From assembly GCF_002924445.1 (NCBI RefSeq), contig NZ_PIGG01000045.1, positions 124,001-188,000 of the forward strand: DNA of 64,000 nucleotides, in the 5' to 3' direction. Below the pieces are notes generated by a model. That model was not told the origin of the DNA. It saw nothing but the letters and a program-made list of their open reading frames with translations, and did no database searches. Position numbers and translations under genes: made by a program. The stretch comes from Minwuia thermotolerans. Lineage in GTDB: Bacteria > Pseudomonadota > Alphaproteobacteria > Minwuiales > Minwuiaceae. Positions 17,940 through 25,947 of this stretch are shown in pieces (position 1 is the stretch's first letter; each line of letters begins with the position of its first letter).

Positions 17940-18032
17940 CGATGTCCCCTTCCATTCTCGAATCCCGGCCGCTTCAAATCCCGGCGGCGCGGGCATCTAG
18001 CGGACAGCTACTGCAGTGCACAACGGGCAACC

Positions 18033-18046
18033 TTGATTTGGATCAA
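18033..18046. promoter_or_regulatory. FNR/FixK box between ccoN and the hemerythrin gene
   Basis: TTGATTTGGATCAA matches the consensus TTGAT-N4-ATCAA exactly, with both half sites perfect. It lies about 93 bases before ccoN (minus strand) and about 73 before the hemerythrin-like gene (plus strand), so it could activate both. The FNR-type regulator is encoded 0.6 kb away. Confidence 0.9.
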
Positions 18047-18118
18047 GATCGCGGGCGGCGCTCTGTGAGAGTCTTGGCCGCGATCAACAGCGTCAACTCA
18101 GGAATTGCCGGTTCGAAC

Positions 18119-18610
18119 ATGCGTATGCCCCTCCCCTATTCCCCGCTTAAGCGGGCGATTACCAAGCAATTGCGCAGTGAAGCGGAAACCGAGACGACGA
18201 TTTCGGAAGAACACCGCCTCATCAGCGAACTCTGCGACCGTCTCGAACACGTCGCCGATGCGCTCCCCGGTCTTCCGGATCCGCAGCAGTTGAGCGAACT
18301 TGTCGCACTGCTGAAAGTCGGCATTCCTGCCCATTGCGCGGCAGAGGAAGCGGCAATGGCCGAATTGCTTCAGAGATCTCCCGAGCCGCCGGAAGCGGTC
18401 CGGGATGCGTTGGAGCTGATCCGTCAGGAGCACGCGGAGAACGAAGCGAACACGATGGAACTGGCGGACATGCTCGAGGAGATGAAGGGTCTGACCAAGG
18501 CAGACGATCCGAACACCCTCGGCTTCATGTTGCGTCAGGTCTTCGTCCTGATCAGACGGCATCTCGCCTGGGAGGAATATGTACTCGCCCACGTTCTGCC
18601 GGAGGGCTGA
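18119..18610 (+). CDS. Hemerythrin-like HHE domain protein
   Basis: This 163-residue, mostly helical protein has the spaced histidines and carboxylates of hemerythrin-type di-iron proteins: EEHR (His32), HCAAEE (His72, Glu76), QEHAENE (His105, Glu109) and RRHLAWEE (His148, Glu152). Such proteins bind O2 or sense O2, NO or iron. It has no membrane or output domain. The start ATG at 18119 is followed by a second in-frame ATG at 18125, and no strong ribosome site distinguishes them. It lies under the FNR box shared with ccoN and is convergent with the fnr gene. A role in oxygen storage or protection of the cbb3 system is an inference. Confidence 0.8.
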   Translation: MRMPLPYSPLKRAITKQLRSEAETETTISEEHRLISELCDRLEHVADALPGLPDPQQLSELVALLKVGIPAHCAAEEAAMAELLQRSPEPPEAVRDALELIRQEHAENEANTMELADMLEEMKGLTKADDPNTLGFMLRQVFVLIRRHLAWEEYVLAHVLPEG

Positions 18611-18616
18611 GCCCGC

Positions 18617-19357
18617 CTATTCCTCGTCGATGTTGGCGGCTTCCCTGAGGGTGGCCATGTCCCGGACGGAGAACTCCCGGCTGGCATGAAGCCGAAGGAT
18701 GCCGGCAGACTTCAGCTTGCCGATCTGGCGGCTCACCGTCTCGATCGTCAGTCCCAGATAATCGGCGATCTCGCTGCGGCTGAGCGGCAGGAAGACGTGG
18801 ACGTTGTCGGGATCCTCGTCTGTATGGCTGCAGCCGATCATGGGCGTGCGCCGTGCGATCATCTCGACGAAGCTCGCAACCTTTTCCGAGGCGGTCTTGC
18901 GGCCCAGCAGCAGCATCCAGTCGCGCGCGGCATCGAGCTCGTTCAGGGTGTCCTGGAACAGCCGCATTTCCAGACCCGGCTTTTCCTTGAGCAGACCTTC
19001 GAAAGCCTTCCGCGGGAAGAGGCAGAGCTCGACGTCGGTCGCCGCCTCGGCGAAATAGGGGCTCCGCTCCTTGTAGGCGCGGCCCAGAAAGTCGGGCGCG
19101 AACTGCAGGCCGACGATCTGCTGACGGCCATCGCCCAGCATCTTGGTCAGCTTGACGGCGCCGGAAACAATGTTGGCGAAGAAGTCCACATGGTCATCGG
19201 CGTTCAGGATCATGTCGCCGGGCTTGTATAGCCTGCGCTTGGCAATCGCGTTGATCGACGAAATTTCCTCGTCCGAAAGTGCGCCGCAAACCGCCCGATG
19301 ACGGATCGCACACATGTTGCATCGGAGCTTCGTGCTGTCGAAAGGTGCGGACTGCAT
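18617..19357 (-). CDS. FNR-type oxygen-sensing transcription regulator (FnrN/FnrL-like)
   Basis: This 246-residue CRP/FNR-family regulator has an N-terminal cysteine cluster C13-x2-C16-x7-C24 and a central Cys112, the four ligands expected for an O2-labile 4Fe-4S cluster. The cAMP-binding-like beta barrel follows, and the C-terminal helix-turn-helix reads LSRSEIADYLGLTIETVSRQIG. The E-x2-SR in the recognition helix is the FNR code for TTGAT half sites, matching the two perfect boxes nearby (18033 and 19478). I chose the ATG at 19357 rather than a TTG eleven codons upstream. It should activate cco and the adjacent stress gene when oxygen falls; the box at 19478-19491, upstream of its own start, may also allow autoregulation. 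Confidence 0.92.
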   Translation of the reverse strand: MQSAPFDSTKLRCNMCAIRHRAVCGALSDEEISSINAIAKRRLYKPGDMILNADDHVDFFANIVSGAVKLTKMLGDGRQQIVGLQFAPDFLGRAYKERSPYFAEAATDVELCLFPRKAFEGLLKEKPGLEMRLFQDTLNELDAARDWMLLLGRKTASEKVASFVEMIARRTPMIGCSHTDEDPDNVHVFLPLSRSEIADYLGLTIETVSRQIGKLKSAGILRLHASREFSVRDMATLREAANIDEE

Positions 19358-19477
19358 CAGCCGATTTCCGAAAAAGGTTCGCGTGGCCAACTTGTGCTCG
19401 AACGCGGAAGATGGTGACGCTGTTGGTCAGAACCCGCCACGCGACGTTCTGACTATGAACGCAATCTGGAATACTAT

Positions 19478-19491
19478 TTGATCCGGATCAA
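19478..19491. promoter_or_regulatory. FNR/FixK box upstream of tandem universal stress gene
   Basis: TTGATCCGGATCAA is a perfect TTGAT-N4-ATCAA palindrome, centred about 66 bases before the ATG at 19551 and about 127 bases before the fnr start on the other strand. Activation of the stress gene and autoregulation of fnr are both possible. Confidence 0.9.
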
Positions 19492-19550
19492 GACATTCAG
19501 CGCGCGGGGCAGGCATGTTCGCGTGCGACCGACGGCAAAGGAGGACTGTC

Positions 19551-20396
19551 ATGGCGATCAAGGATATATTGCTACATCTCGATCCGGCGACGGACATGGA
19601 GGCCGACATCTCGGCAGCCATCGGCATCGCCGAAACCAACGACGCCCATCTCGCGGCGCTCTATACGGCGGCGTCGATGCCCGCTTGGCCGGCCTACACC
19701 TATGCGGGGCTGCCCGGCGACGTGCTGGACACGATCGAGAGCCACGAGGCGCGGGCCGCCGAGGACATCCGCGCGACCTATGAGAAGGCCATCGGCCGGT
19801 CCTCCCTCAGCGTCGACTTCCGCCATACGCGTGTCTACAGCGCCGAAGTGGCCGAAACGGTGGCGCGGCACGCCCGCCACGCAGACCTGCTGGTGATGGG
19901 CCAGTCGAAGCCCGACGAGCCCCGCGCCGGCGGCGCCGAGGTCGTCGAGGAAGCGGTGCTGGGCGCCGGGCGGCCCGTGCTGGTCCTGCCCTATGTCGGC
20001 AACCGCAAGTCCATGGGCACCAATGTCATCGTCGGCTGGGACGGCAGCCGGGAAGCCGCACGCGCGCTGAACGACGCCCTGCCCTTCATGAAGAACGCCA
20101 AGACCGTTCACGTCATGATCGTCAACCCCGATGCCAACGCCGCGAACTACAGCGAACTGCCCGGCGCGGACATCTCCTTGCATCTCGCCCGGCACGGCCT
20201 GAAGGTGGACCTGATCACGGAGAAGGCGTCCGGCATCGACCCGGCCAACCTGATCCTCTCGCGGGCCTCCGATATCGGCGCCGATCTGCTGGTCATGGGC
20301 GCGTTCGGGCACTCGCGCATCCGCGAATCCCTGTTCGGCGGCGTCAGCCGCAGCATCCTCCGGCAGATGACCCTGCCGGTCCTGATGTCCCACTAG
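19551..20396 (+). CDS. Tandem UspA universal stress protein
   Basis: This 281-residue cytoplasmic protein is made of two UspA domains. The first (about 1-145) starts MAIKDILLHLDP and has a DLLVMGQSK strand. The second (about 155-281) has VIVGWDGSREAARAL and ends with GADLLVMGAFGHSRIRESLFGGVSRSILRQMTLPVLMSH, where the G-x2-G-x9-G(S/T) ATP-binding loop is recognisable. AGGAGG lies upstream of the ATG at 19551. The perfect FNR box in front suggests induction under low oxygen, as known for several Usp proteins in FNR regulons. Exact role unknown. Confidence 0.88.
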   Translation: MAIKDILLHLDPATDMEADISAAIGIAETNDAHLAALYTAASMPAWPAYTYAGLPGDVLDTIESHEARAAEDIRATYEKAIGRSSLSVDFRHTRVYSAEVAETVARHARHADLLVMGQSKPDEPRAGGAEVVEEAVLGAGRPVLVLPYVGNRKSMGTNVIVGWDGSREAARALNDALPFMKNAKTVHVMIVNPDANAANYSELPGADISLHLARHGLKVDLITEKASGIDPANLILSRASDIGADLLVMGAFGHSRIRESLFGGVSRSILRQMTLPVLMSH

Positions 20397-20416
20397 AACT
20401 CCCAGCCGGGCGGTCG

Positions 20417-20761
20417 CTACGCCGGCGCCGGAAGCCGCACCTCTATCGCGGCGCTGGCGATGACCGCCCGGTCCTTTCCATCCTCGTCGGGGACGTCCAG
20501 GCCGCCGGTCACGGCGCGCACGCTGACCCGGCCCACGGGCAGCGCCCGCTTCACAGCTTCCGTATCGACCTTGTCGGGACGCGCCACGCCGATGGTGACG
20601 TCGACCGCAAGGCTCGCAGGGTCGAGACCCAGCACGCGCACGAAGGTCAGCGAACTGTGCTGCAGCGCGTCCTGCACCGCGCGGACCGCCGCCTTGGTGT
20701 AGTCGCCGCCATGCAGGTCGGTGCCTGCGCCCATCTCCAGAATCACCCGCGGCCCGCTCAT
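20417..20761 (-). CDS. Lin0512 family protein, copy 2
   Basis: This 114-residue protein shares with its upstream neighbour the pattern VILEMGAGTDLHGGDYTKAAVRAVQDAL..SSL, the fingerprint of the uncharacterised Lin0512 family, plus a second conserved half (VTIGVARPDKVDTEAVKRALPVG). Its ATG overlaps the stop of copy 1 by 4 bases, so the two are translationally coupled and may form a heteromer. No biochemical role is established for the family that I can name with confidence. Convergent with the universal stress gene. Confidence 0.78.
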   Translation of the reverse strand: MSGPRVILEMGAGTDLHGGDYTKAAVRAVQDALQHSSLTFVRVLGLDPASLAVDVTIGVARPDKVDTEAVKRALPVGRVSVRAVTGGLDVPDEDGKDRAVIASAAIEVRLPAPA

Positions 20762-21114
20762 GCCCGCGCGCCCTCGTCGAGGTCCAGATAGACGGCGGCG
20801 GCCGCATGCGCCATCACCGTGACGTCGTCGCCCGCGTCATTCGGAATTTCCAGGCCACCGGCCATGACTTCGACCGTGCCCGTACCATGCGGCAGCACCG
20901 CCAGCACCGCGTCGCGGTCGACCGTCTCGGGTCGCGGCGCGCCGATGCGCACCTCGACGCGCATGGCGTCCGAACTCTGGCCCAGCGCGGGCGCCACCGT
21001 CAGCGAGTTCCGCCACAACGCGTCCTTCAGCGCCCGGACGGCCGCCTTCGTGGCGTCACCGCCGCGGATGTCCGTCCCCATGCCGATTTCAAGAACCACC
21101 CGCCGCCACGCCAT
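20758..21114 (-). CDS. Lin0512 family protein, copy 1
   Basis: This 118-residue protein begins MAWRRVVLEIGMGTDIRGGDATKAAVRALKDAL, the Lin0512 signature, and has the second conserved half VRIGAPRPETVDRDAVLAVLPHGTGTVEVMAGG. By eye roughly half of the positions match copy 2, pointing to an old tandem duplication. It has no signal peptide or membrane segment. Most genomes I would expect to see carry such genes singly or in pairs. The function is unknown; the coupled arrangement suggests a two-subunit complex. Confidence 0.78.
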   Translation of the reverse strand: MAWRRVVLEIGMGTDIRGGDATKAAVRALKDALWRNSLTVAPALGQSSDAMRVEVRIGAPRPETVDRDAVLAVLPHGTGTVEVMAGGLEIPNDAGDDVTVMAHAAAAVYLDLDEGARA

Positions 21115-21148
21115 TGTCTTCCCCTGCCCGTTGTCCCGGGGACCGAAG

Positions 21149-23548
21149 CTAGCGCGCCTTGCCCCGCCCGCCTACACGCCCCTTTCCGCGCGTCACTTTC
21201 GCAGCGGCCTTCGGGGCCTCCGCCGCCGCAATGTCACCGAAATCGGCCTCGTAGCGGGCCATGAGAGCCTCGAAGGCCGCCGACGCAGCGGGGTGCCCGG
21301 CGACCTTCCCGCTCTCGGCGATCTCGATCTCCTGGGTCTTCTCCCGAACCAGGTTCGTCTTCTCCGGCCGGGCCGCGAATTGCTTGCGTACCTCGCCGTT
21401 GCCGCCGAAGAAATGCTGCTCCGCCTTGCGGTCTTTCAGGGCGCCGGCGTCGAACGGCAGGTCCAGCAGCTGACACAGCCGCTCCAGATGCTCTTCCTCA
21501 CGGGCGGTGAAATTCTCCCACCTGAGACAGAGCAACCGGCCCTGCGGTTTGCCGAGGTTCAGAAAGCGGAAGTAGTTGGTTGCATAGGAGCGTCCGAACC
21601 GGATGCCGGAATAGGCGTATGCCGGGTTGTCGGGATTCGACTCCTCGCGCTTCCGCATGGAGCGATAGGCGTTGACCGGACTCTTGAACAGGACGACGCC
21701 GTCATAGCGCTCCAGCGGATCGAGCGTCGGCGCCATGTGCTTGTCGCCGCTCACGAGGATCTCGCTCCCCAGTCTCGCCGCCAGGCGCTGGAACCAGTTG
21801 GTCGGGTCGTCGGCCAGCGCCGCACGGAAATCGAAATCGAAGACCCGGCACTCGGGGCCGCAGTGTGCGCATGGCGTCAACATGCTCCGTGGATCGCTGG
21901 CGAAGTCGAAGGGCACCTCCTGCTGGCCGCCCTCGCCCATCGCAATGGACTTGGTCAGCCGGTGCGACTCGCCGACATGTTCGACCCCCGGCAGCGAACC
22001 GAGGACCGATCCGAGGAAGGTGCTGCCGCAGAAGGAAATGCCGAGGAGGCTGACGACCCTGGCCTCCGGCTCGGGCGTGCGGGAGGACGCCGCCAGGTCC
22101 CCGGCGAGACGTTCGACCCGATCGGCCTCCTCGGCGACGGCCGAGTGCCCCGGCGCAATCTCCTGCAGACGCTTCAGGCGGTTCCGCGCCTTTCTGACAT
22201 TGCGCTCCCTTATGGCCGCCCGCACCAGAGCGAGCATGGTCATGAAATCCGTGACCGCGGAGACCTTCAGACCAAGTTCCTCGATCTCGGCCACCCGGTG
22301 CAGATGCGCAAGTACCGAGGCGAGATGGCCGCGCACCCGGCCGGCCTCCTTCGGGAACTTCGCCATACGCGCGCGCAGCAGGCGTTCGGCCGAGATCGGA
22401 TCGTCCATCCCGAGATAGATCTGGACCATCGTCTCCCAATGCGCGGTTTCAGCCATCTCTTCGGGGCCGCGGCCGCCCTGGTTGACAAGCTCGACGGCTA
22501 TAGCCTGATCCTCGATCAGGCTCGCGGACCGGATCGCCCTCAGTCGCGCGTTCTCGTTCGCGGGATCGGCGGCAAGGGCTGCGCGGAACCATTCCAGTGC
22601 GGCGGCGTAGTTGCGGCGCGCGTAGCTGAGCTGGCCGAGTTGGGCCAGGGGTTCCGCCGAGTCCGGCTCGGTCCTCGCAATATCACGCCAGAGCTCTTCG
22701 GCCCGATCCACAAGACCGGCGTTCACCAGACTCCGGGCCATGACCAGCTTCAACGTGCGGTTGCCCGGATCCCGCTTGAGGACCGGTCCGAGCGCCTCGA
22801 CCGCCGCCTTGTAGTCCCCCTGGCGGTAGAGGACCATCGCCTCGTCCCGCATCTGATCGTGCCGCCGGCGAAGCTCCTGGCCACCGAACCGGCTGAACTG
22901 GATGACGACGTAGTCGTATATCTCGAAATCCTGGACCCAGAAACGTCTCAGATTGGCCCGCCCCCGTTCGGACAACTCGTCGGCGGACGATGGCCCCTCG
23001 GGACGGACGTGGACATGCGCCGGCTCGTTCGGCAATCCGCTCCGGGGAAGCGCCATGCGGCCGGCCATCTCCGGCAGCCTCTGGTCGAGTTCGTCCAGAC
23101 CGGCCACGAAGAACAGCCGATGGCGCACCCGCTCCAGATATTCCGGTGAACCCAGCGCCCAGGCGAAATTCCGCCGCAGATGGCTGATCGCATTCATGGC
23201 GAAGAGCGCGGCCGATTTCAGCCGCTCATCCTCTGCTTCGAGCGCACACGCCAGCTCGTCGGGCGTCGCGAACCACCGGAAGGCCACCGCCTCCTCCGGC
23301 GACCACAGGGAATTCCGCTTCGGCCGGCCGTTCCTGAGACGACTCCAGAATGCCGAGACGAAACGCGCCGCAGGGTCGCGGACAACGAAGCTCATCTTCA
23401 GTTCCGGGTCGGCCGCCAGCGCTTCGCGCAGCCTGACATCATGGCCGAAACGGCGGAAATCCACGTTGTGCGCCGCCGCCAGAGGCCCGATGTGCTCCAG
23501 CACCGCGTTGCCACCGGTCTTGCCGATATGAAGAAATCCGAACGACAC
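21149..23548 (-). CDS. Sulfotransferase-TPR-sulfotransferase fusion protein
   Basis: This 799-residue protein appears to hold two P-loop sulfotransferase-like domains flanking a TPR array. The N-terminal one (about 1-220) opens with FGFLHIGKTGGNAV, resembling the 5'-phosphosulfate loop of Sulfotransfer_2 enzymes, and continues SFVVRDPAARFVSAFWSR, the 3'-phosphate Arg/Ser region. Residues about 230-475 are TPR helices (QGDYKAAVEALGPVLKRDPGN, RNYAAALEWFRAALAADPAN). The C-terminal one (about 495-770) has LLGISFCGSTFLGSVLGSLPGVEHVGESH and VLFKSPVNAYRSMRKR. The last residues are Lys/Arg/Gly-rich. Such enzymes transfer sulfate from PAPS to glycans or proteins. The duplication within one chain is unusual. 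Divergent from the PAS-GGDEF gene. Confidence 0.78.
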   Translation of the reverse strand: MSFGFLHIGKTGGNAVLEHIGPLAAAHNVDFRRFGHDVRLREALAADPELKMSFVVRDPAARFVSAFWSRLRNGRPKRNSLWSPEEAVAFRWFATPDELACALEAEDERLKSAALFAMNAISHLRRNFAWALGSPEYLERVRHRLFFVAGLDELDQRLPEMAGRMALPRSGLPNEPAHVHVRPEGPSSADELSERGRANLRRFWVQDFEIYDYVVIQFSRFGGQELRRRHDQMRDEAMVLYRQGDYKAAVEALGPVLKRDPGNRTLKLVMARSLVNAGLVDRAEELWRDIARTEPDSAEPLAQLGQLSYARRNYAAALEWFRAALAADPANENARLRAIRSASLIEDQAIAVELVNQGGRGPEEMAETAHWETMVQIYLGMDDPISAERLLRARMAKFPKEAGRVRGHLASVLAHLHRVAEIEELGLKVSAVTDFMTMLALVRAAIRERNVRKARNRLKRLQEIAPGHSAVAEEADRVERLAGDLAASSRTPEPEARVVSLLGISFCGSTFLGSVLGSLPGVEHVGESHRLTKSIAMGEGGQQEVPFDFASDPRSMLTPCAHCGPECRVFDFDFRAALADDPTNWFQRLAARLGSEILVSGDKHMAPTLDPLERYDGVVLFKSPVNAYRSMRKREESNPDNPAYAYSGIRFGRSYATNYFRFLNLGKPQGRLLCLRWENFTAREEEHLERLCQLLDLPFDAGALKDRKAEQHFFGGNGEVRKQFAARPEKTNLVREKTQEIEIAESGKVAGHPAASAAFEALMARYEADFGDIAAAEAPKAAAKVTRGKGRVGGRGKAR

Positions 23549-23720
23549 GATACCCCCGCTGGAATCGGGCTTAGACTAGCCACCCGGCTGCCGGCGAAGC
23601 AACTGTCCGGACGCCAGCCCTGTGGGCTCCATGCCACACTCCGACCGCTGCGCGGCCCGGGGGTCCATGTCATGGCATCCGAACTCTGTTAGTGTCGTTG
23701 GCCGACACGGAGCATTGTCG

Positions 23721-25409
23721 ATGGCAACCGCAGATGAACGGACCACGGCCCAGGGGCCCAGGGGAGACGAGACCGACCGCCTCGACTTCCTGCAGGCCAT
23801 CGTCGAGACGACCGACGCCATCGTCGTCGCCGCCGACGCGGAGGGCCGCATCATCTGGGTCAACGACGCCTTCACGCGCATCACCGGTTTCAGAGGCTCG
23901 GAAGCGCGCGGCCGTTTTCTCTGGTCGTTCCGGGTCCCCGAGGAGCAGGAGCCCGGCCGCGAGGCGTTTCTCGAAGCGGTCGGACGCACGGACGAACGCC
24001 GCTTCGAGAGCCGCTGGCTGACCCGTGACGGCTCGGAACTCTGCCTCTCCTGGTCCACACGCACCCTGTTCGACGAGAATGGCGCGGTCCGTTTCCGCGT
24101 CGGCACGGCGGTCGACGTCACCGCCGAAAGGCGGAACGCGGCGCGCGCGCTCGACCTGGGGGAGATGCTCGACCAGGTCGGCGAAGCGGTGATCCTCGTC
24201 GATCCCGACTCCGTCATTCAGTACGCCAACCGGGAAGCCGTCGAACTCTACAGGACGCCGCTGAAGAAACTGATCGGCAAGTCGAACCGGGATTTCATCC
24301 CCGAGGCCGAGGCCGAGCGGTTCGAGAAGTTCCAGCAGACATTGCGGGACAGCATGGAGCCGCAGGCCATCGAGACGGACCGGATCCGCGGTGACGGCAC
24401 GGTGGTGCCCGTGGAGTTGCGCGTCTCTCCAATCCGGGACTCCGCCGGCAAACTCAGCGGGTTCGTCAGCGTGTCCTACGACATTACCGACCAGATCCGG
24501 CTGCAGGAACGCGCACGCGCCATCGCCGACCGCAACGCCGTCCTGGTCCGGCTGCTGGAGAACCTGCCCGACCCCGTCTTCTACATGCGCCCGGACGGCA
24601 CCCTCGGCTATGCCAATGACGCCGTAGAAGACGTCTATGGCTACAAACCGGAAGAACTGCTCGACGGGCCCATGGCCCGGGTGCGGCCGCTCGACCGCGC
24701 AAAGCACATGGCCGAGTTCGTGGCCCGCGCCATCGAAACGGGCGAGCCCTGCATCATGGAAACACAGGCGCTGCACAAGGACGGCCACCGGGTCGAGGTC
24801 GAGGTCCGCGCCGTGCGCATCGACGACGCAGACGGCAACTATGCCGGTCTGGCCGGCTTCGCCCGCGACATCGGCGAGCGCAAGCGGATGGAGACCGAAC
24901 TGCGCCGCCACGCCAGCACCGACACGCTGACCGGCCTGGCCAACCGCCGGCATTTCGAGACCATCGCCGCCGCCGAGGTGAAGCGCGCCGCGCGCTACGG
25001 TCATCCCCTGTCGTTCATTACCTGCGACCTGGACCACTTCAAGCGCGTCAACGACAGCTTCGGCCATGACGGCGGCGACGTCGCCCAGCAGCGTTTCGCC
25101 CAGATCGTGAGCGCCAGCCTGCGTCTGCCGACCGACGTGGCGGCTCGACTCGGCGGCGAGGAGTTCGGCGTGCTGCTGCCGGAAACCGATATCGACAGCG
25201 CCGTGGCGGTCGCCGAGCGGATCCGCCGGCGCACCGAGGAGGCGGCCATCGAGTTCGGCGGCCGCCCGGTGCGCCTGACCGTCAGCCTGGGGGTCAGCCA
25301 GCATGCGGCAGGTGAGTCGTCCCTGGCAGCGGCGATGAAGCGGGCCGACCGCGCGCTCTACGAAGCCAAGGGCGCGGGACGCAACAGGACATGCACGGCG
25401 TCGGCCTGA
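23721..25409 (+). CDS. PAS-PAS-PAS-GGDEF diguanylate cyclase
   Basis: This 562-residue soluble protein has three PAS domains (about 20-135, 145-260, 275-390) and a C-terminal GGDEF domain (about 395-560). Its active site reads GGEEF at 478-482 after DLDHFKRVNDSFGHDGGD. The position of the inhibitory RxxD site reads LPTD, so the Arg is missing and product feedback inhibition is unlikely. It should make cyclic-di-GMP in response to a PAS-bound signal or partner. The ATG at 23721 has GGAG upstream. No membrane segment is present. Divergent from the sulfotransferase gene. Confidence 0.9.
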   Translation: MATADERTTAQGPRGDETDRLDFLQAIVETTDAIVVAADAEGRIIWVNDAFTRITGFRGSEARGRFLWSFRVPEEQEPGREAFLEAVGRTDERRFESRWLTRDGSELCLSWSTRTLFDENGAVRFRVGTAVDVTAERRNAARALDLGEMLDQVGEAVILVDPDSVIQYANREAVELYRTPLKKLIGKSNRDFIPEAEAERFEKFQQTLRDSMEPQAIETDRIRGDGTVVPVELRVSPIRDSAGKLSGFVSVSYDITDQIRLQERARAIADRNAVLVRLLENLPDPVFYMRPDGTLGYANDAVEDVYGYKPEELLDGPMARVRPLDRAKHMAEFVARAIETGEPCIMETQALHKDGHRVEVEVRAVRIDDADGNYAGLAGFARDIGERKRMETELRRHASTDTLTGLANRRHFETIAAAEVKRAARYGHPLSFITCDLDHFKRVNDSFGHDGGDVAQQRFAQIVSASLRLPTDVAARLGGEEFGVLLPETDIDSAVAVAERIRRRTEEAAIEFGGRPVRLTVSLGVSQHAAGESSLAAAMKRADRALYEAKGAGRNRTCTASA

Positions 25410-25530
25410 CTAGACCTTGTAATTCTCTTTGACATTGCCGACATCCCCGTGATCCGCTTCCACTCGAGGAAACAAGATCCCGGCGGCTGCGGGGTTGAAC
25501 TCGTGACCGTCTCATGAAGGGAGGGGCAAG

Positions 25531-25947
25531 ATGTTCAAGAAGATCATGGTTCCGGTGGACCTGAATCACGCCGACAAGCTGCAGAAGGCGCTGAATACTG
25601 CCGCCGATCTGGCAAACCACTATGGCGCGACGATCTGCTATGTCGGCGTGACGGCAGCGACGCCGGGCGCCGTCGCCCACAATCCCGAGGAGTTCGGCCG
25701 CAAGCTGGCCGCCTTTGCCGACGAACAGGCGGGCGCGCGCGGCGTGAAGACGGAATCGAAGCCGATGACCAGCCACGATCCCGCCGTCGATCTGGACGAC
25801 ACGCTGATGGAGGCGCTCGAGCAGACCGGCTGCGACCTGGTGGTCATGGCGACCCACGTCCCCAATATCAGCGACTATCTCTGGTCGTCGAACGGCGGCC
25901 GGATCGCCAATCACACTCGGGCTTCGGTCTTTCTCGTGCGTGACTGA
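25531..25947 (+). CDS. Single-domain universal stress protein
   Basis: This 138-residue UspA-fold protein begins MFKKIMVPVDLNHADKLQKAL and ends with the core strand CDLVVMATHVPN and a short helix before ASVFLVRD. The usual G-x2-G-x9-G-S/T ATP loop is only partly kept (SNGGRIANHTRASV), so nucleotide binding is uncertain. It has AGGGAGGGG upstream and no FNR box, unlike the tandem Usp at 19551. Convergent with the aconitase gene, 17 bases apart. Confidence 0.82.
   Translation: MFKKIMVPVDLNHADKLQKALNTAADLANHYGATICYVGVTAATPGAVAHNPEEFGRKLAAFADEQAGARGVKTESKPMTSHDPAVDLDDTLMEALEQTGCDLVVMATHVPNISDYLWSSNGGRIANHTRASVFLVRD

Follow-up and report, generated by a model that had tools for sequence, protein, structure and literature searches.

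Sulfation patterns are usually the work of separate enzymes; does one gene of the alphaproteobacterium Minwuia thermotolerans encode two such enzymes on a single chain? The gene lies in a 64,000-nucleotide stretch, referred to here as the window (assembly GCF_002924445.1, contig NZ_PIGG01000045.1, positions 124,001 to 188,000), and its 799-residue product runs from a sulfotransferase-fold N-terminal domain (N-head) through a tetratricopeptide repeat (TPR) solenoid to a sulfotransferase-fold C-terminal domain (C-head). Residues 7-13 read HIGKTGG and residues 503-514 read GISFCGSTFLGS. A first-pass annotation had proposed two sulfotransferase-like domains separated by TPRs, and this is borne out by the Pfam matches of the repeats together with profile and fold evidence for each head. 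The presence of two sulfotransferase folds in one protein is thus well supported. The novelty resides in the architecture and in an unusual loop of C-head, the chemistry itself being of a known kind.

The whole protein matches the Pfam model TPR_19 (E 6.9e-15, 55.6 bits, cut-off 25), and TPR_14 (40.3 bits, cut-off 23.5) and TPR_16 (35.9 bits, cut-off 32.7) also score above their cut-offs. Sulfotransfer_3 (E 1.2e-5, 26.2 bits, cut-off 27) and Sulfotransfer_2 (E 0.012, 16.2 bits, cut-off 22) are found below theirs. Taken alone, N-head reaches 19.9 bits against Sulfotransfer_2 (PF03567; E 8.7e-4) and C-head 26.8 bits against Sulfotransfer_3 (PF13469; E 7.2e-6), just under the threshold. A search of NCBIfam gave no name for either head. 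The solenoid is modeled by AlphaFold as helices from residue 224 to 488, with block confidences (predicted local distance difference test, pLDDT) of 78-86 at 231-310, 35-52 at 341-380 and 81-95 at 431-490.

The N-terminal part does not belong to another fold, a possibility that had been raised for checking, since its predicted structure matches the heparan sulfate sulfotransferases. The N-head model has a pLDDT of ~96 over most of the domain, with a dip at 171-190; the alignment used for this job held 41 rows, of which 2 were C-type sequences misaligned onto N-head columns. The nearest fold is heparan sulfate 2-O-sulfotransferase 4ndz (Z 13.9, root-mean-square deviation (rmsd) 3.1, 192 aligned), followed by 6-O-sulfotransferase 5t03 (Z 12.8, rmsd 3.8, 190 aligned). 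With these enzymes and 3f5f, N-head shares the fold over 190-194 residues (Z 12.6-13.9), a lysine-bearing PAPS (3'-phosphoadenosine 5'-phosphosulfate) loop and a serine on the PB helix. However, identity over the aligned residues is only 15-17%, and the bacterial domain measures ~225 residues and is joined to a TPR solenoid. Sequence-profile searches of the PDB with N-head returned no significant sulfotransferase, the 6-O-sulfotransferase appearing at E 0.35 and 0.1. Six of the seven members of a smaller N-head alignment match Sulfotransfer_2 at E up to 0.1, the best at 1.7e-7.

Relatives of N-head occur at 61 loci among genome contigs, in many phyla and at 27-47% identity, mostly in open reading frames (ORFs) of ~210-280 residues; eight lie in frames below 160 residues (broken or cut). 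Searched alone, N-head also matched two further genomes among the 385 of the class (open frames of 227 and 267 residues) and 6 of 72,556 plasmid records, the latter in N-head only (tblastn). In an alignment of 39 N-heads (the window protein and 38 of the 61 loci, the remainder being broken, partial or not chosen), the invariant columns include Lys10, Thr11, Gly12, Gly13, His36, Arg57, Pro59, Arg62, Ser65 and His123. Part of a review describes a glycine and a lysine on the PAPS loop and a serine on the PB helix as shared by sulfotransferases, with histidine or glutamate as base (PMC11625862). N-head has the PAPS-loop lysine (Lys10), the PB-helix serine with a preceding arginine (Ser65 and Arg57) and the P-loop sulfotransferase fold; it appears to carry the listed features, with His36 as the putative base. 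A close single-headed relative, WP_123628235.1 of Phaeobacter inhibens (annotated as sulfotransferase family 2), is 41% identical to N-head residues 3-212 and has the invariant PAPS-site residues in common, but unlike the window protein it stands alone among capsule and teichoic-type genes.

C-head aligns with cysteine-bearing members of Sulfotransfer_3, a branch that is a grouping defined in this analysis; all of its features, namely the GST loop, a GE pair, the cysteines and the lysine of an S-K motif, are present. It differs from the family in reading F506-C507-G508 in place of RxG and in being fused behind TPRs and another head. The domain keeps Glu527, Lys603, Lys622 and Ser630, the last being the PB-helix serine, and the column of Glu527 is glutamate in 15 of 18 relatives. 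Glu527 and Lys603 presumably correspond to the catalytic residues of TPST and of the heparan sulfotransferases. The middle cysteine lies one residue earlier in most relatives. These 18 relatives were chosen for the cysteine motif. Two are neighbor genes of N-head relatives, at loci L029 and L045, that share the P-loop region of C-head, L045 also sharing its late H-GGN motif. A profile of C-head with these two hit 14 further genomes of the 385 (E up to 1e-6); all 14 matches were read by eye, and six bear the cysteine motif. Ten more came from a fuller profile, which at E 1e-10 reached 17 other genomes among 398 of the phylum; the search gave 23 other rows, 14 of which were read and 4 left out for having no cysteine motif, with 9 not read. 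A profile of eight relatives that excluded the window protein and its orthologue gave C-head 55.4 bits, whereas 200 shuffles scored at most 1.5 and N-head -1.0; six of its members had been found by a profile containing C-head and two by C-head itself, so the choice was not blind.

In the full-protein AlphaFold job C-head was effectively a single sequence, mostly with pLDDT below 50, and a separate model was built from a nine-row alignment. Foldseek places TPST2 first (probability 1.00, E 2.5e-6, TM 0.44). In VIA-align, NDST1 and TPST2 tie at Z 12.8, a fold match at this score having an rmsd of 4.2 over 204 aligned residues, and every one of the top 31 rows is a sulfotransferase. The predicted fold of C-head is therefore that of a sulfotransferase, and the ranking of its model favors neither a protein-type nor a glycan-type enzyme.

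The fusion is found again in the single-contig genome of a second member of the genus (G003), where the orthologue has equal length and 94% identity (46 differences in 799 residues) and the surrounding ORFs are of similar sizes and in matching order. An assembly artefact is therefore ruled out. The 46 differences spare all named motif residues of both heads. Crude ratios of nonsynonymous to synonymous substitution (dN/dS) between the two species are 0.18 for N-head, 0.23 for the TPRs and 0.15 for C-head, and by this comparison both heads are under purifying selection; C-head as a decaying remnant was rejected, its ratio being the lowest among the three domains. The C-terminal tail, rich in Gly, Ala, Lys and Arg, is conserved less than the other parts (dN/dS 0.47 for residues 771-799), and its model confidence stays below 50 from residue 781. 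The GC content is 66% in the gene vs 65% in the window, with 82% at third codon positions; by these values the gene does not look foreign, though they would not preclude a foreign origin.

Table 1. Features of the two-headed gene and of the adjoining Lin0512-family genes, in window positions.
Feature	Position	Strand	Details
Whole sulfotransferase gene	21149..23548	-	799 aa; GTG start, TAG stop
N-head, Sulfotransfer_2-like P-loop sulfotransferase domain	22865..23548	-	residues 1-228
N-head PAPS loop HIGKTGG	23510..23530	-	residues 7-13; H7, G9, K10, T11, G12, G13 invariant, 39/39
His36, candidate catalytic base of N-head	23441..23443	-	invariant 39/39; putative role
N-head 3'-phosphate motif R57DPAARFVS65	23354..23380	-	R57, P59, R62, S65 invariant, 39/39
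TPR / helical solenoid	22082..22864	-	residues 229-489
C-head, cysteine-bearing branch of Sulfotransfer_3	21224..22081	-	residues 490-775
C-head PAPS loop GISFCGSTFLG	22010..22042	-	residues 503-513; Phe506 where most relatives have Arg
C-head cysteines C560, C563, C567	21848..21871	-	column Cys 17/18 (C560), 18/18 (C567)
C-head Lys603 (VSGDK; D-S-S-K or similar in relatives)	21740..21742	-	Lys in 17/18 relatives
C-head 3'-phosphate motif K622SPVNAYRS630	21659..21685	-	622: Arg 16, Lys 2 of 18; 630: Ser 14/18
Basic C-terminal tail	21152..21223	-	residues 776-799; 8 K/R, 1 D/E of 24
Lin0512-family gene	20758..21114	-	Pfam E 9.3e-30; 34 bases after sulfotransferase stop; same order in G003
Second, tandem Lin0512-family gene	20417..20761	-	Pfam E 5.5e-34

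What might such a protein do? The preferred reading, a tentative one that falls a little short of an even chance, is a two-headed PAPS-dependent sulfotransferase in which N-head O-sulfates a surface glycan, the TPR region docks the protein and C-head adds a second sulfation. The glycan as substrate is suggested by analogy, and a surface glycan sulfated at one or two positions would be the most likely product. The protein is probably cytoplasmic, because the first PAPS loop starts at residue 7, too early for a signal peptide to precede it. N-head would sulfate a sugar hydroxyl with PAPS as donor, as the heparan 2-O- and 6-O-sulfotransferases do, with Lys10 acting on the leaving phosphate, Arg57 and Ser65 on the 3'-phosphate, and His36 as base. 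Its acceptor could be the surface glycan or a lipid-linked precursor, met on the cytoplasmic side before export. The solenoid would either dock the protein on the machinery that makes or exports the glycan or act as a spacer between the heads. C-head would then sulfate a second position, with Glu527 as base and Lys603, Lys622 and Ser630 serving PAPS, Phe506 occupying the usual place of arginine.

Several observations weigh against this proposal. Both heads miss their Pfam cut-offs, also when scored alone. No glycan cluster is present at the gene among the neighbors tested (17942-25947 only). Among the neighbors of N-head relatives, tRNA-synthetase genes (4) are almost as frequent as the glycan families (Sulfotransfer_1 6, Glycos_transf_2 5, Wzt_C 5 and Sulfotransfer_3 5, among the 25 of 97 families listed), and these counts stand without a background control; the census drew 141 ORFs from 36 of the 37 chosen loci, the remaining one having no central ORF, and after omission of the 5 longest for their size 136 were left. 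The C-head model is of medium confidence (mean pLDDT 64, predicted TM score 0.63), and known sulfotransferase homologues were among the sequences aligned to build it. Non-sulfotransferases also enter its comparisons, with a GTPase at E 1.2e-4 in Foldseek and kinases from Z 11.0 in VIA-align, vs 12.8 for the top. Finally, Phe506 deprives the PAPS loop of its basic residue, at a position that among the 18 relatives is Arg in 11, His in 4, Tyr in 2 and Asn in 1, and a basic residue there belongs to the sulfotransferase definition in the part of the review cited above (PMC11625862).

Due to the missing PAPS-loop arginine, the activity of C-head is uncertain. It is a real possibility, though one held short of probable, that N-head is the sole catalytic head and C-head a pseudo-sulfotransferase that binds the acceptor, serves as a regulator by sensing PAP (3'-phosphoadenosine 5'-phosphate) or PAPS, or engages a partner. 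Besides Phe506, C-head has GDK for the usual S-S-K or A-S-K and Lys622 for arginine, while the motifs of N-head are intact, and a low dN/dS is compatible with a binding role too. However, seven of the 18 relatives, which were not met in fused form, are also without the arginine, and two have lysine at the position of Lys622; these changes are therefore not peculiar to the fused head. The retention of Glu527, Lys603, Ser630 and the cysteines likewise speaks against a pseudo-enzyme.

The kinases lower in the C-head list, and the GTPase and ParA-type ATPases among the Foldseek rows, are what could be expected if the heads were other P-loop enzymes, of nucleoside or adenylate kinase-like type, that merely resemble sulfotransferases. 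This is very improbable, since a 3'-phosphate motif is present in both heads, both group by sequence with Pfam sulfotransferases and no kinase or GTPase enters the top 31 VIA-align rows of C-head.

A third alternative concerns the acceptor of C-head, which could be a protein or peptide sulfated on tyrosine, as by TPST or RaxST, the TPRs recruiting this substrate and N-head having a separate glycan job. In its favor, TPST1 and TPST2 are the best Foldseek matches of the C-head model, and TPRs usually bind proteins. However, the VIA-align tie between TPST2 and NDST1, with 3-O-sulfotransferases at Z 12.3, does not single out TPST, and Sulfotransfer_3 also holds the glycolipid enzyme NodH, as stated in part of the review (PMC11625862). 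No candidate protein substrate emerged, none having been looked for. Sulfation of a protein by C-head is considered unlikely.

The two-headed glycan sulfotransferase preferred here is favored by the complete N-head motifs and fold match, by the profile score and conserved residues of C-head and by the low dN/dS values, with indirect context from elsewhere in the genome and from relatives. Two APS kinases above the Pfam cut-off, encoded in the genome, would supply PAPS. One of them (L115, in contig C81, 50000-66000) adjoins NeuB, UDP-GlcNAc 2-epimerase and a MurJ-type flippase, and near it is a weak match to a sulfotransferase (22.7 bits, below cut-off) in an ORF for which Pfam gave nothing at E 1e-4; the stretch looks like a sulfated sialic-acid-type glycan cluster. 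Beyond the two-headed gene, Sulfotransfer_3 matches occur at five further sites of the genome (E up to 0.01), of which four exceed the cut-off. The N-head relative of Phaeobacter adjoins tagD, a CDP-glycerol glycerophosphotransferase gene, glf and capsule genes. The glycosyltransferase, Wzt_C exporter and sulfotransferase families counted above among the neighbors of N-head relatives also point toward a glycan, and a Burkholderia protein (L042, below) joins the N-head family to a different Sulfotransfer_3-like head.

How widespread is the arrangement? The first-pass annotation had called a double-headed sulfotransferase uncommon. This holds for the exact architecture, which within the order was found as a full-length protein in two of nine genomes (E 1e-10) and which no other full-length match showed, and less well for the pairing of heads as such, given that 5 of the 61 N-head loci have an open frame above 500 residues with a second sulfotransferase-like head. 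No further full-length copy was obtained when the heads were sought singly in the 385 class genomes and C-head in the 398 phylum genomes. A full-length scan of genome contigs gave no relative, in a search that needs exact short peptides and may omit near copies of the window genome, and phages gave no match at E 0.01 (tblastn). No description of double sulfotransferases was found in the literature searched, under four wordings for such proteins.

One of these frames, of 831 residues in Burkholderia arboris (L042, 4917-7409; also in a second strain, L018), resembles the window protein in the order of its heads: the first is Sulfotransfer_2-like (21.1 bits, cut-off 22) and the second Sulfotransfer_3-like (20.0-21.9 bits, cut-off 27). 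By contrast, no TPR was found between its heads, it has a long tail with a weak coiled-coil match, and its second head is unmatched by the C-head profile at E 0.01. Four shorter frames (504-541 residues) from Paracoccus, Roseobacter and Roseovarius (L027, L028, L031 and L054) combine an N-head-type domain with a P-loop domain bearing sulfotransferase motifs. In these, unlike in the window protein, the partner head is N-terminal (HxGAHRTGTT) and no TPR was found. Pfam Sulfotransfer_3 is found in this first head in one of the four (22.4 bits, cut-off 27), and L054 has no Pfam sulfotransferase match at E 0.1 in either half; the first head is a putative sulfotransferase by motif only. In profile-profile comparison, only short motifs linked N-head, C-head and the first head of the Paracoccus type.

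Three different arrangements around the N-head family are thus present, in the window protein, L042 and the Paracoccus-type frames. These may represent independent fusions, because C-head matches neither the Paracoccus-type heads in the profile comparison nor the second head of L042. In its fullest form the two-headed reading would be a truly bifunctional enzyme with two evolutionarily distinct sites, one heparan 2-O/6-O-type and one NodH/TPST-type, the latter with a non-basic PAPS loop; the TPR solenoid would hold the two so that a single acceptor chain is processively sulfated at two positions, and the N-head family would have entered such fusions on three or more occasions. Taken together, this remains doubtful. 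A protein in which nature has coupled two different sulfotransferase domains would serve as a model for coordinating two sulfations and as a possible tool for producing doubly sulfated glycans, and the repeated joining of the N-head family to varied second heads is a cue to sulfotransferases that act together.

The neighbors in 17942-25947 include Lin0512, PAS-GGDEF, universal stress, Crp-type regulator and hemerythrin genes. The nearer Lin0512-family gene is a possible operon partner of the sulfotransferase gene. The family is found in G003 and also in G002, from another genus of the family Minwuiaceae, in which the sulfotransferase was not found. On the other flank lies the PAS-GGDEF gene, divergent from the sulfotransferase gene. 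The two divergent ORFs may share control, since only 73 bases (23549-23621) separate their first start codons.

Searches with C-head as a single sequence gave few matches. Two weak ones in the 385 class genomes were judged by eye to be chance resemblances to DnaA. Ten weak ones came from the 398 phylum genomes, eight of which were read (L087 and L088 unread); four of the eight proved to be sulfotransferases, two on Pfam evidence (L082 and L091) and two on their motifs (L086 and L089), and the rest were set aside as two DnaA-like by eye and two other chance matches. C-head had no match at E 1 in the 72,556 plasmid records (tblastn), and no C-head relative was found in viral contigs, four viral loci holding none at E 0.01. 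The C-head group poses the question of whether a sulfotransferase can function with Phe, Tyr or His for the PAPS-loop arginine, and the relatives with His or Tyr at this position (L093, L128, L129, L130, L134 and L045) provide a natural series on the arginine requirement. Another combination was met at L082, where an open frame reported at 997 residues has a glycosyltransferase family 41 domain followed by Sulfotransfer_3, both above their Pfam cut-offs.

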